A DNA stretch of 64,000 bases from an uncultured Ignavibacteriota bacterium (GTDB lineage Bacteria; Bacteroidota; Ignavibacteria; UBA10030; UBA8401), in the NCBI GenBank assembly GCA_903884005.1, contig CAISDA010000088.1, positions 62,001-126,000 of the forward strand, written 5' to 3'. Numbering within the stretch: position 1 is the stretch's first letter; each line of letters begins with the position of its first letter. The notes below the pieces were generated by a model that was not told the origin of the DNA, did not search any database, and worked only from the letters and a program-made list of their open reading frames with translations. This document shows positions 27,643-32,082 of the stretch, piece after piece. A program made the position numbers and the translations under genes.

Positions 27643-28551
27643 TCAATGCGCGTGTTTTTCGTCCGCATGTTCGCTCACCATTCCAAGGCCCATGAAGAGG
27701 CTCGTGAGCATGGTAAAAATATACGCCTGAAGGAACGACACGAACAGTTCCAGAAAATTGATGGCCAGCACGAATCCAACGGAGACCGGCGCGACCCACA
27801 GCGTCTTGAAGACAAAGATCAATCCGATCAAGGCGACGATAACGATATGGCCGCCGGTCATGTTCGCGAACAAACGAATGCAGAGCGCGAACGGTTTCGT
27901 GAAGAGTCCGAGCACCTCGATCGGTATCATGATGATCCACAATCCCCAATGCACGCCGCCGGTGAGATGCGCGAAATAATGTCCGACGCCCTGTTCGCGG
28001 ATCGCCGAGACCTGTATCATGACGAACGCGATGATCGCCAGTGCGGCGGTGACGCTCACGTTCCCCGTTGCCGAGGCGCCATAGGGAATGAGGCCGAAGA
28101 GGTTCATCGCGAGGATGAAAAAGAACGTCGTGAGCAGGTACGAGAGGTACTTGAGCCCGCCCTTGCCCATGTTCGGCAGGACGATTTCGTCGCGTATGAA
28201 GACGATAAAAATTTCAATGAGGTTTCCGAAGCCGGTCGGCACTTTGCGCTTCGCATTCTGCCTGGCGGCGTACGTGAGCGCAACGACGAGCACGACGGCC
28301 GAGAGCAGCATGAACACGACATGTTTCGTGATCGAGACGTCGATCCCGAAGAGCTGGAGGTGCGGCAGTTCGATGGCGCCAAGAAACGGCAGATGCAATT
28401 CGGGGGAGTCCTGCGTATGATGAAGGAGCTCGGTGAAGAGATTCCCCTCGTGTTCCGCGCCCGCATGCACGGCGAGTGTATCCGCACCGTGCGCGAGCGA
28501 GTCTGCCGCGGCATGGAGTGTATCGGTGACAACGTGCGATTCAACGATCAT
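27643..28551 (-). CDS. atpB: ATP synthase F0 subunit a
   Basis: 302 residues. A long His-rich N-terminal segment (residues 1-55) precedes five or six membrane helices. The key Arg226 lies in FALCIRLFANMTGGH and faces the c-ring; the last helices carry NFLELFVSFLQAYIFTML. It forms the half-channels for ion entry and exit. The extended N-terminus before the first helix is usual for Chlorobi/Bacteroidetes a-subunits. It ends with a His-rich tail (EHADEKHAH). Confidence 0.97.
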   Translation of the reverse strand: MIVESHVVTDTLHAAADSLAHGADTLAVHAGAEHEGNLFTELLHHTQDSPELHLPFLGAIELPHLQLFGIDVSITKHVVFMLLSAVVLVVALTYAARQNAKRKVPTGFGNLIEIFIVFIRDEIVLPNMGKGGLKYLSYLLTTFFFILAMNLFGLIPYGASATGNVSVTAALAIIAFVMIQVSAIREQGVGHYFAHLTGGVHWGLWIIMIPIEVLGLFTKPFALCIRLFANMTGGHIVIVALIGLIFVFKTLWVAPVSVGFVLAINFLELFVSFLQAYIFTMLTSLFMGLGMVSEHADEKHAH

Positions 28552-28594: not shown

Positions 28595-29020
28595 TTACGT
28601 GACCGGCTGCGATCTCAATTCCATTTTTTTCTGAAGAAAGAAAATTTCAAGCGTCAGGTTCACGGCATAAAAAAACATCAGCGACGAGATGAGCGCCGCC
28701 ACGTGCCAATGGAGGAGCGTGATCATCGCAACGAGCACGGCGGCCGAGACCAGCATCCTGATCCCCATCCCGCCGAGCACTGCCTTCATGAACACGGTGA
28801 ACGATTTATCGAACGCATATTCGATCGCGACGAATCCCGCCACGGCGTTCGCGTAACTGATCGCCGCGCCGCCCATGCAGCCGACGAGGATCTCGTGCGT
28901 GCCGTAGCGGACCAGCGGATATGCCGCACAGGCAACGATAATGCTGAACGAGCCGGCCAGGTTTCTGAGAAACGAATAGTCTATACTATGATTTTTTTTT
29001 ATTGCGTGCGCGTTCATCAT
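28595..29020 (-). CDS. AtpI-like small membrane protein
   Basis: About 141 residues with four hydrophobic helices. GGAAISYANAVAGFVAIEYAF resembles the second-helix region of ATP synthase I-chain proteins, where a Gly-rich start leads to an Asn. It sits between atpZ and atpB, the normal place for atpI. I proteins assist c-ring assembly or magnesium supply. The frame overlaps the end of atpZ by about 35 bases, and starts at 29038, 29020 or 29017 are possible; the ribosome-binding site is weak. Sequence similarity is low, so the name is provisional. Confidence 0.65.
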   Translation of the reverse strand: MMNAHAIKKNHSIDYSFLRNLAGSFSIIVACAAYPLVRYGTHEILVGCMGGAAISYANAVAGFVAIEYAFDKSFTVFMKAVLGGMGIRMLVSAAVLVAMITLLHWHVAALISSLMFFYAVNLTLEIFFLQKKMELRSQPVT

Positions 29021-29255
29021 CCTGCTTTGCCAAGTCATTGACCGTACGGATAAATTTGATCAGTCCGCCGGCACTACCCGCAACGATTGCCGTGATCATG
29101 AGCCACGGCGCGGTGGAAAATTTTTCATCGCACAAGCGGCCTATAAAGAACGCCGCCACAACGGTCATCGCCAGCTGGATGCCGAGTGTGAGATAGGGCC
29201 CGGCAGACAGCATCGCCGAACGGTTTACTTCTTCCTTGTCCTCTTCTGGCGTCAC
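28986..29255 (-). CDS. atpZ: AtpZ/AtpI-family F0F1 assembly protein
   Basis: 89 residues starting with GTG at 29255, overlapping the bactofilin stop as GTGA. Two membrane helices: LTLGIQLAMTVVAAFFIGRL and PWLMITAIVAGSAGGLIKFI, ending in a basic KKKS tail. This is the small two-helix protein that opens many atp operons, in some species with AtpI forming a magnesium/calcium channel. Direct coupling to a cytoskeletal gene upstream is unusual. Confidence 0.85.
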   Translation of the reverse strand: MTPEEDKEEVNRSAMLSAGPYLTLGIQLAMTVVAAFFIGRLCDEKFSTAPWLMITAIVAGSAGGLIKFIRTVNDLAKQDDERARNKKKS

Positions 29256-29893
29256 CGTATTTGCTGTTTTTGCTGATTATGCTGCTGGTATGTGGGCTGC
29301 TGGTCCCGCCGCTGTTGCAGCTGCTGCTGCGTTTGTTGCTGCTGCGTTTGTTGCTGTTGCGTTTGTTGCTGCTGCGTTTGTTGCTGTTGCGTTTGTTGCT
29401 GCTGCGTTTGTTGCTGTTGCGTTTGTTGCTGCTGCTGCGATTGCTGCTGCTGCGATTGCTGTTGCTGCGATTGCTGCTGCTGCGATTGCTGTTGCTGCGA
29501 TTGCTGCTGCTGCGATTGCTGCTGCCACGGATGTTCACCGGGGTTCTTCACGACGGTTTTATCCGCCATCGCCACACGTCCGTCGAAGATGGCGCCTTCG
29601 TCGATCACAAGCCGCTGTGCGCGGATATCGCCCTGCACCACCGACCGTGATTCGAGCACGAGTTTTTCGACGGATGACACATTGCCCTTCACGCGGCCGC
29701 CGATGGTCACATTTTTTCCGGCCACGGCGCCTTCGATTTCGCCGGTTGCTCCGACGGCCAAATTTTCAGTCGAGTGGACTTCTCCCCTGACCTTTCCGTC
29801 CACACGGATGTTGCCCTTCGTGCGGATGCTGCCTTCCACAACCGTTCCCGAACCGATAAGGTTCAATTCCTTGGTCATCGATTTATCAGACAT
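29252..29893 (-). CDS. Bactofilin with polyglutamine C-terminal tail
   Basis: 213 residues, started at the ATG at 29893 with GAGAGG in front. Residues 12-112 are the bactofilin (DUF583) beta-helix: short repeats with alternating Val/Ile and Gly (GTVVEGSIRTKGNIRVDGKV and AGKNVTIGGRVKGNVSS). Bactofilins polymerise without nucleotide and scaffold cell-wall enzymes or set cell shape. From residue 124 the chain is almost pure Gln: six QQQQS-type units, then seven QQQQT units, then a Gln-rich tail ending QQKQQIR. The M23 peptidase 34 bases upstream is a typical bactofilin partner. The tail is encoded by a tandem repeat and may vary in length. Confidence 0.93.
   Translation of the reverse strand: MSDKSMTKELNLIGSGTVVEGSIRTKGNIRVDGKVRGEVHSTENLAVGATGEIEGAVAGKNVTIGGRVKGNVSSVEKLVLESRSVVQGDIRAQRLVIDEGAIFDGRVAMADKTVVKNPGEHPWQQQSQQQQSQQQQSQQQQSQQQQSQQQQSQQQQQTQQQQTQQQQTQQQQTQQQQTQQQQTQQQQTQQQLQQRRDQQPTYQQHNQQKQQIR
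29330..29524 (-). repeat. 15/30-bp in-frame tandem repeat coding for polyglutamine
   Basis: Thirteen units of about 15 bases, each coding QQQQS or QQQQT, inside the bactofilin gene. On the plus strand the T-type units alternate TTGCTGCTGCGTTTG and TTGCTGTTGCGTTTG, so a 30-base higher-order period is visible; the S-type units similarly alternate CTGCTG and CTGTTG. All units are multiples of three, so gain or loss of units would keep the frame. Confidence 0.95.
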
Positions 29894-29927: not shown

Positions 29928-30839
29928 TCATTTTTCGCTTGCGATCAAATATTCGGCCGGATTTTGCGGCTGCCCGTCTTTCCACAGTTCAAAATGAAGA
30001 TGGGGACCGTAGCTTGTGGCCCCCGAATCGCCCAGGAGCGCAATCGGCGTTCCTCGTTTCACAAAATCGCCCTGCTGTTTCAACAGCGACTGATTATGCT
30101 GATAGACAGTCACGTAGCCGCCGCCGTGAGAGAGAATAATAATATTGCCGCCTTCGTGCGTCCAGTTCGAAAAAATGACGTATCCGTCTGCGGCCGCGGT
30201 GATGATCGTGCCGCGCTTGCCCGCATAGTCGATGCCGAAATGTAACTTCTCACTTTGAAACGTTCGCGTGATGTATCCGTCCACCGGCGCCGAAATCGGG
30301 AACGCGGCGCGATACGCAGGACCGCGCTGAGCGATCGGCGATTCAGGCGCGGCGTCTGCCTGCACGGTGCGTTGGCCGTGCGCCGCTTTCTTCTTCACAA
30401 CGGGCTGCGGGGTGTCGCTCGTTTCGTCTTTCGCATCCACGGGCTGATCGGGAGCTTGTGCAAGGTGCTCGGCGATGCCCGTCATCAAACTGTCCATATC
30501 GGTATTATCGCCCAGCGCAAACCGGAGTTTCCTGTTGTAATCGCGCATGACGAGCATTTCCTGAGACAGGTTGATCACCCTGCGCTGCAGCGAAACAAGC
30601 TCCGCTCCATAGCGCTGCGACAGTTCCGCATCCGAAACGGGAATCAGCCGTCCGAGAGGCGTGAAGACGATAGCGGCGATGCTCGCGCTTGCGATCAACA
30701 GCACGATACCCACGATGCCCGCAACAAATTCCCATCGGTGCGCTGAAAATGAAAAACCTTTTTCGCCGTTCTCTTCGGGAACAATGACGACTTGGAGTTT
30801 ACTCTTTTTCGAAGAATGATGATCTCGATGTCCCGCCAT
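29928..30839 (-). CDS. Membrane-anchored M23 (LytM) peptidase
   Basis: 303 residues, started at the ATG at 30839 (MAGHRDHHSSKKSK). Cytoplasmic basic N-terminus, one membrane helix (38-60), a periplasmic coiled coil (70-105), a Pro/Ala linker, then a LytM domain (180-300) with zinc ligands His200 and Asp204 in HFGIDYAG, and His280-Leu-His282 in GPHLHFEL, all present, so it should be an active endopeptidase on peptidoglycan cross-links. Paired bactofilin-M23 genes shape cells in other bacteria (for example CcmA-Csd1 in Helicobacter). It overlaps no gene and reads into the bactofilin gene 34 bases on. Confidence 0.93.
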   Translation of the reverse strand: MAGHRDHHSSKKSKLQVVIVPEENGEKGFSFSAHRWEFVAGIVGIVLLIASASIAAIVFTPLGRLIPVSDAELSQRYGAELVSLQRRVINLSQEMLVMRDYNRKLRFALGDNTDMDSLMTGIAEHLAQAPDQPVDAKDETSDTPQPVVKKKAAHGQRTVQADAAPESPIAQRGPAYRAAFPISAPVDGYITRTFQSEKLHFGIDYAGKRGTIITAAADGYVIFSNWTHEGGNIIILSHGGGYVTVYQHNQSLLKQQGDFVKRGTPIALLGDSGATSYGPHLHFELWKDGQPQNPAEYLIASEK

Positions 30840-30978
30840 TGCCAACAGTTTCTTCCAGGTGTACAATGGAAAATAAAGAATAAATATAGAAAGAACCTGA
30901 ATTAAAATCAATCCTGATGTGCGGATGATTGGCTGTGGCTGTCTACACCCCGAAGGGGCGCCGGCGACACCCGCATCG

Positions 30979-32082
30979 TTACCAATGGAACGCGATCTTT
31001 TCCTCGATAAAGGCGAGCATATCATTTTTATACCGCTCGCGAGAGAACAACAGGGCGTGGGCGCGTATCGCCTCGGGACTGAAGATGATCGATTCCGTGC
31101 GGGAAACAGCATCTATCAGGGCATGGGCCGACTGGGATCCAAAGAAAGTTCCGGTGACGCCCTCGACAACAGTTTCGAGCGCCCCGCCCTTGCCGAATGC
31201 GACGACCGGCTTGCCGCAGGCCATCGCCTCAAGGGGGACGATCCCGAAATCTTCTTCACCAGGAAAAATGAGTGAACGGCACCCGGCATACAACCCTGCC
31301 AGATCGGCGTCGTTGCGCCATCCCAAAAATTCTACCGACGGTCCGGCCATCGCGTGCAGTTTTTTTTCCTCAGGGCCCTTGCCGACGATCACCAGTCGTC
31401 GGCCGGTCCGGTTGAACGCCTCGATCGCCACATCGACCTTCTTATAGGGAACGAGCGCGCTGACGATCAGAGAATACCCTTCGTCCCGATCCGAGAGGAT
31501 AAAATGTCCGGTGTCGACCGGAGGGAAGATCACCGCAGCGTCCTTCCCGTAATGTGTCCGAATGCGTGTGCGGACATTTTCGGAATTGGCAATGTAGTGA
31601 TGGACGCGCCCGGCGGTGCGAACATCCCATGCGCGCAGCAGCGGCGCAGCGAGCGCCATTGCCGCGCGCGTCACGACGTCCGCTTTTCCTTTTCCGAAAT
31701 ATTCATCGTACATCTCCCACACATACCGCATCGGCGTGTGGCAGTAGCAGATGTGCAGCGCGTCCGGGCGCACGACGGCTCCTTTGGCAACGCAATGGCT
31801 CGTGGAGAGCACCACATCGAATGCGGAAAAGTCGAGCGATTCGATCGCCGACGGGAACAACGGAAGATACGACCGGTATTTCGATGCGACGCGAGGCAGG
31901 CGCTGTATGAAGGAGGTCCGGATGTCCCGCGATTCGATCAGCGGCGACATCGATCCCTTTACATGCAGAAGCGAATACAGCGGAGCGTCGGGAAATAGTT
32001 CGCACAGGACCTCGAGACATTTTTCGCCGCCCCGCATCCCGGTCAGCCAGTCGTGCACCAGTGCAATGCGTAAGTGTTTCAT
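30979..32082 (-). CDS. GT4-family glycosyltransferase
   Basis: 367 residues, started at the ATG at 32082 (MKHLRIALVHDWLTGMRGGE). GT-B fold: N-terminal Gly-rich motif MRGGEKCLEVL for the acceptor side, and a C-terminal nucleotide-sugar domain with SALVPYKKVDVAIEAF, GKGPEEKKL and the E-x7-E motif PGEEDFGIVPLEAMACGKPV. It transfers a sugar from an activated donor onto a lipid-linked or surface glycan; donor and acceptor cannot be told. It is divergent from the aminotransferase at 32194 and is followed by the M23 peptidase after 139 bases. Confidence 0.9.
   Translation of the reverse strand: MKHLRIALVHDWLTGMRGGEKCLEVLCELFPDAPLYSLLHVKGSMSPLIESRDIRTSFIQRLPRVASKYRSYLPLFPSAIESLDFSAFDVVLSTSHCVAKGAVVRPDALHICYCHTPMRYVWEMYDEYFGKGKADVVTRAAMALAAPLLRAWDVRTAGRVHHYIANSENVRTRIRTHYGKDAAVIFPPVDTGHFILSDRDEGYSLIVSALVPYKKVDVAIEAFNRTGRRLVIVGKGPEEKKLHAMAGPSVEFLGWRNDADLAGLYAGCRSLIFPGEEDFGIVPLEAMACGKPVVAFGKGGALETVVEGVTGTFFGSQSAHALIDAVSRTESIIFSPEAIRAHALLFSRERYKNDMLAFIEEKIAFHW

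Follow-up and report, generated by a model that had tools for sequence, protein, structure and literature searches.

The locus described here lies in a 64,000-nucleotide stretch of DNA from an uncultured Ignavibacteriota bacterium, referred to as the window, and carries genes in the order M23 peptidase, bactofilin, atpZ, a protein in the AtpI position and atpB (Table 1). This order is kept in nearly all relatives fetched; the bactofilin is therefore taken to be the resident orthologue, and its long glutamine-rich tail to be an addition.

Table 1 Features of the bactofilin locus (positions are those of the window)
Feature	Position	Strand	Basis
M23 peptidase ORF, LmdC-like layout	29928..31112	-	PF01551 E 2.9e-30
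Bactofilin gene	29252..29893	-	213 aa, ATG start, TGA stop; PF04519 E 6.6e-26; AlphaFold fold like that of 2N3D and 6RIB
Residues 1-107: short N-terminus and beta-helix core of the bactofilin	29573..29893	-	
Tandem array for QQQQS and, after these, QQQQT units; period 15 nt, higher-order period 30 nt	29320..29525	-	Tandem Repeats Finder score 266; unit listing and autocorrelation
Gln-rich C-terminal end following the array, degenerate, with QQ pairs at a spacing of 3-5 residues	29252..29319	-	
AtpZ-like gene	28986..29255	-	PF09527 E 3.3e-12; GTG start
147-aa protein in the AtpI position	28595..29038	-	No Pfam match; syntenic homologues in relatives
ATP synthase subunit a (atpB)	27643..28551	-	PF00119 E 9.2e-60

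The bactofilin gene and its neighbours

The bactofilin gene is complete and its limits are exact, with 213 codons followed by TGA. A sequence-only reading of this DNA had named it a bactofilin, and this was borne out by both profile and fold. Residues 12-107 match PF04519 with 90.9 bits against a curated cut-off of 27.9; among solved bactofilins, phmmer gave E-values of 4e-15 for 6RIA/6RIB and 4e-14 for 2N3D; and the AlphaFold model, built on 64 sequences, has a core pLDDT of 94-99 and target TM-scores of 0.87 to 2N3D and 0.94 to 6RIB. Nucleotide-independent polymerisation is a bactofilin trait, and a short N-terminal membrane-binding peptide is common in bactofilins but not universal. By eye, the N-terminus found here (MSDKSMTKELN) is without the MALF- or MFG-type start of several phylum bactofilins, and the relatives at the same locus likewise are without it.

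The adjacent, co-directional M23 peptidase was found to have a short cytoplasmic N-terminus, one transmembrane stretch (by inspection), a periplasmic part and the M23 domain. The peptidases of relatives align from about residue 92 of the ORF, where a conserved cytoplasmic start is followed by a hydrophobic stretch, and the true start is probably at about residue 91 (MAGHRDHH...). Judged from its sequence and setting, the bactofilin gene is an ordinary single-copy one of the M23-peptidase-linked type with an added tail.

On the other side, the GTG of atpZ overlaps the bactofilin stop by 4 nt, and relatives show similar 4-nt overlaps as well as short gaps. Translation of atpZ may be coupled to ribosomes reading through the Gln tail. 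A separate observation, made by eye, is that the GTG start of atpZ has no clear ribosome-binding site.

Glutamine-rich tail and tandem array

Beyond the core the bactofilin carries a tail of 106 residues, 65 of them Gln. The earlier description, about 65 residues of QQQQS and QQQQT units encoded by a 15-base repeat with a 30-base higher order, was accurate for the units and for the periodicity but too short for the Gln-rich part, which runs past the array into the non-repetitive C-terminal end QQLQQRRDQQPTYQQHNQQKQQIR; this end is possibly an earlier portion of the repeat that has decayed. Tandem Repeats Finder gave the array a period of 15, 13.5 copies, 90% matches and a score of 266, the second-best tandem array in the window scoring 64. 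The array has five full QQQQS units and a partial one, a QQQQQ junction and then seven QQQQT units. The QQQQS block alternates CAG CAG CAG CAA TCG with CAG CAA CAG CAA TCG, and the QQQQT block alternates CAG CAG CAA CAA ACG with CAA CAG CAA CAA ACG; autocorrelation accordingly gave higher identity at lag 30 than at lag 15 in both blocks (0.98 versus 0.94 and 0.97 versus 0.92). This periodicity, together with an exact internal repeat of 78 nt, points to recent duplication.

Twelve of the 17 lag-15 mismatches fall at third codon positions, mostly as CAG/CAA synonyms, and the remaining ones were located by inspection at the Ser/Thr switch, the junction and the array end. Each of the approximately 65 Gln codons is one C-to-T change short of a stop, and none is a stop. 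The open Gln codons and the mostly synonymous changes fit a translated tract, a young tract, or both. Since the units are of 15 nt, gain or loss of a unit keeps the frame, as had been proposed; the further suggestion was that such changes could tune polymer bundling or the binding of partners.

The expression 'pure polyglutamine', also used in the sequence-only reading, had to be given up: Ser or Thr interrupts every fifth residue, and the longest Gln run is 5, below the working threshold for a polyglutamine-run protein (an uninterrupted Gln run of 10 or more). AlphaFold modelled tail residues 127-197 as one helix with a pLDDT of about 93, a prediction made there from no sequence other than that of the window; confident helical predictions are common for polyQ (PMC10531472).

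A search for the Q4[S/T] array in the 4.53-Mb genome of the organism found no second copy (reversed control pattern 0), and on this ground another site of the same genome was rejected as its source. In NCBIfam the tail gives low-complexity matches to RNase E and DnaX, far under cut-off, and the Leu-, Ala- and Cys-rich ORFs in other frames or on the opposite strand over the array are mirror frames of the repeat.

Distribution of tails and glutamine arrays

The core of the bactofilin is up to 68% identical to those of 64 distinct relatives. Their tails are 8-38 residues long with at most 4 Gln, in agreement with the earlier statement that bactofilin tails are usually short. Bactofilin was present in 157 of 247 phylum genomes, and in 20 loci drawn from the longest-framed bactofilins elsewhere in the phylum the tails measure 16-65 residues and contain no more than 3 Gln; the idea that Q-rich tails are hidden among long-framed bactofilins was rejected on these loci (0/20). 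The Q4[S/T] array occurs in one of 391 class genomes, namely this one, and there at the bactofilin gene only; a shared family trait was rejected because the array is absent from all the others. The sole same-genus genome (G001, 71% complete) lacks bactofilin, atpB and any close M23 peptidase, and in the same-family genome G009 the contig breaks inside atpB. Within the sample, the restriction of the tail to one lineage is clear.

The sequence-only reading had set beforehand that relatives lacking any Gln-rich tail would count against it, and such a tail is indeed found in none of the 64. To judge from the comparison, the array is still real, but its absence from relatives argues against a conserved function: with the tail found in none of them, conservation gives no argument for a function.

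Of 395 phylum genomes, 13 have arrays of Q4X type or longer Gln arrays. The substantial ORFs in which Q4D or Q4N units were read encode BatC-like TPR proteins, whose best NCBIfam match is BatC, under cut-off. QQQQD or QQQQN arrays of 15-nt units were observed in such proteins at loci L147 (G149:C20), L150 (G673:C1) and L154 (G495:C35), and in Bacteroidota these proteins look like a hot spot for Gln minisatellites; the BatC-like protein of the window's own genome is only Q/K-rich. Long pure Gln runs were also read in a few others; at locus L142 (G515:C3:71139-71198), an ORF resembling RdgB/XTP pyrophosphatase, named from its sequence alone, ends in some 20 uninterrupted Gln codons, most of them CAA, immediately before the stop. 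Very long CAA runs in short ORFs were seen at L145 (G412:C12:274280 onward) and L143 (G500:C26:146918 onward); these are perhaps plain DNA repeats and not coding sequence, because the reversed control pattern also fires in those genomes.

The earlier judgement that such a tail is 'very unusual in bacteria' was thus too broad, since Q4X arrays and pure Gln runs occur in other Bacteroidota proteins; what stands is that the location on a bactofilin is unusual. Gln minisatellites appear to be sporadic in the phylum, and on a bactofilin one was seen only here. Q4X arrays are not new; the placement on a bactofilin is.

Interpretation and known systems

The gene has an in-frame, repeat-built tail on an intact bactofilin core. 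The explanation that we prefer, and to which we give about an even chance, is that a lineage-specific coding minisatellite grew a solvent-exposed filament tail that adds lateral contacts or spacing, while the core still polymerises and scaffolds the M23 peptidase. A Gln-rich C-terminal tail would have seeded the 15-nt minisatellite, in one lineage as far as sampled, and the tail would have grown to about 100 residues by duplication of 15- and 30-nt units, presumably through replication slippage or unequal recombination. Family membership and synteny lead one to expect that the beta-helix core is still able to form polymers and to act as a scaffold for the adjacent peptidase. The tail would then stand out from the filament as a brush, weakly charged and either disordered or prone to form a helix, whose most likely effect would be to add weak lateral contacts from one filament to another or to space them.

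A close rival, which we regard as quite possible, is neutral expansion, in which the end of the protein is evolutionarily free, the repeat slipped and the extra residues are merely tolerated. Several facts suit this rival: the tails of bactofilins show little conservation and can sometimes be dispensed with (PMC12448750), the array is confined to one lineage, and sporadic Gln arrays lie on other phylum proteins, as in the C-terminal Gln run of the RdgB-like ORF. It is less readily reconciled with an array in which the Gln frame is kept by every unit, most changes are synonymous and none has produced a stop, or with the degenerate Gln-rich end, which suggests that the tail persisted for some time; yet these features could also follow from the youth of the array.

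Studies of other bactofilins point both ways. In M. xanthus, BacM that lacks its C-terminus is still able to polymerise, but the fibres are kinked and braided; the C-terminus shapes lateral packing (PMC4372379). The C-terminus of A. biprosthecum BacA is required for localisation and SpmX binding (PMC12364344), whereas H. pylori CcmA without its C-terminal domain keeps cell shape (stated in PMC12364344). Because of BacM packing, of the BacA C-terminus as against the dispensable tails, and of the caveat on polyQ helices, lateral contact or spacing may be placed slightly ahead of neutrality, with low confidence. A further version, in which the length of the Gln-rich side-brush would set lateral association of the filament and would vary among cells or strains through in-frame repeat gain or loss, is in our view unlikely.

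It is improbable that the copy number of the array, or part of the array, is a product of short-read assembly over the 206-nt repeat. The genome is in 89 contigs, the unit count is known from the assembly alone, and the 78-nt exact repeat is longer than many assembler k-mers; against this, the array is internal to a 187-kb contig, it keeps the frame, and it has ordered CAG/CAA alternation, two distinct blocks and a unique Gln-rich coding segment at its end. A specific docking site for a partner, like the PadC-binding long tail of M. xanthus BacP, is very improbable, for although long bactofilin tails can bear binding sites (PMC12448750, PMC12364344), this tail is composed almost only of Gln, Ser and Thr with no recognisable motif, and the neighbouring M23 N-terminus resembles that of relatives without the tail.

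We read the tail as a real but apparently lineage-specific oddity. Tails are the least understood part of this widespread cytoskeletal family. In this natural orthologue, about 100 Gln-rich residues have been added while core and gene order are otherwise conserved, which makes it well suited to learning what a tail is capable of and how a bacterial polymer copes with a tract prone to aggregation. Should the tail prove neutral, it would show the permissiveness of the filament end.

In the literature searched, no paper was found with both 'bactofilin' and 'glutamine-rich'; 'bactofilin' and 'polyglutamine' co-occur in PMC4372379, the use of the latter not being located in the available part of that paper. 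The locus shares with bacA-lmdC of Hyphomonas neptunium and Rhodospirillum rubrum a bactofilin core and an adjacent gene for a bitopic M23 peptidase with a short cytoplasmic N-terminus, and in that system the peptidase LmdC binds bactofilin (PMC10945521); here, by contrast, ATP synthase genes follow, and the tail is Gln-rich and about 100 residues long instead of short. Myxococcus xanthus BacP is likewise a bactofilin whose core is followed by an exceptionally long C-terminal tail (PMC12448750), but that tail has a KKKVVVKK motif and binds PadC, whereas the tail described here consists of Q4S/T repeats with no known motif. The BatC-like TPR proteins of Bacteroidota have comparable QQQQD/QQQQN tracts from 15-nt CAR-rich units, but they are unrelated proteins and their tract lies between the TPR repeats and a conserved C-terminus. 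Eukaryotic polyglutamine proteins share a Gln-rich, repeat-encoded, helix- or aggregation-prone tract; the bactofilin tail differs from them in its short pure runs, in its regular Ser/Thr interruptions and in being built of 15/30-nt units and not of CAG triplets.
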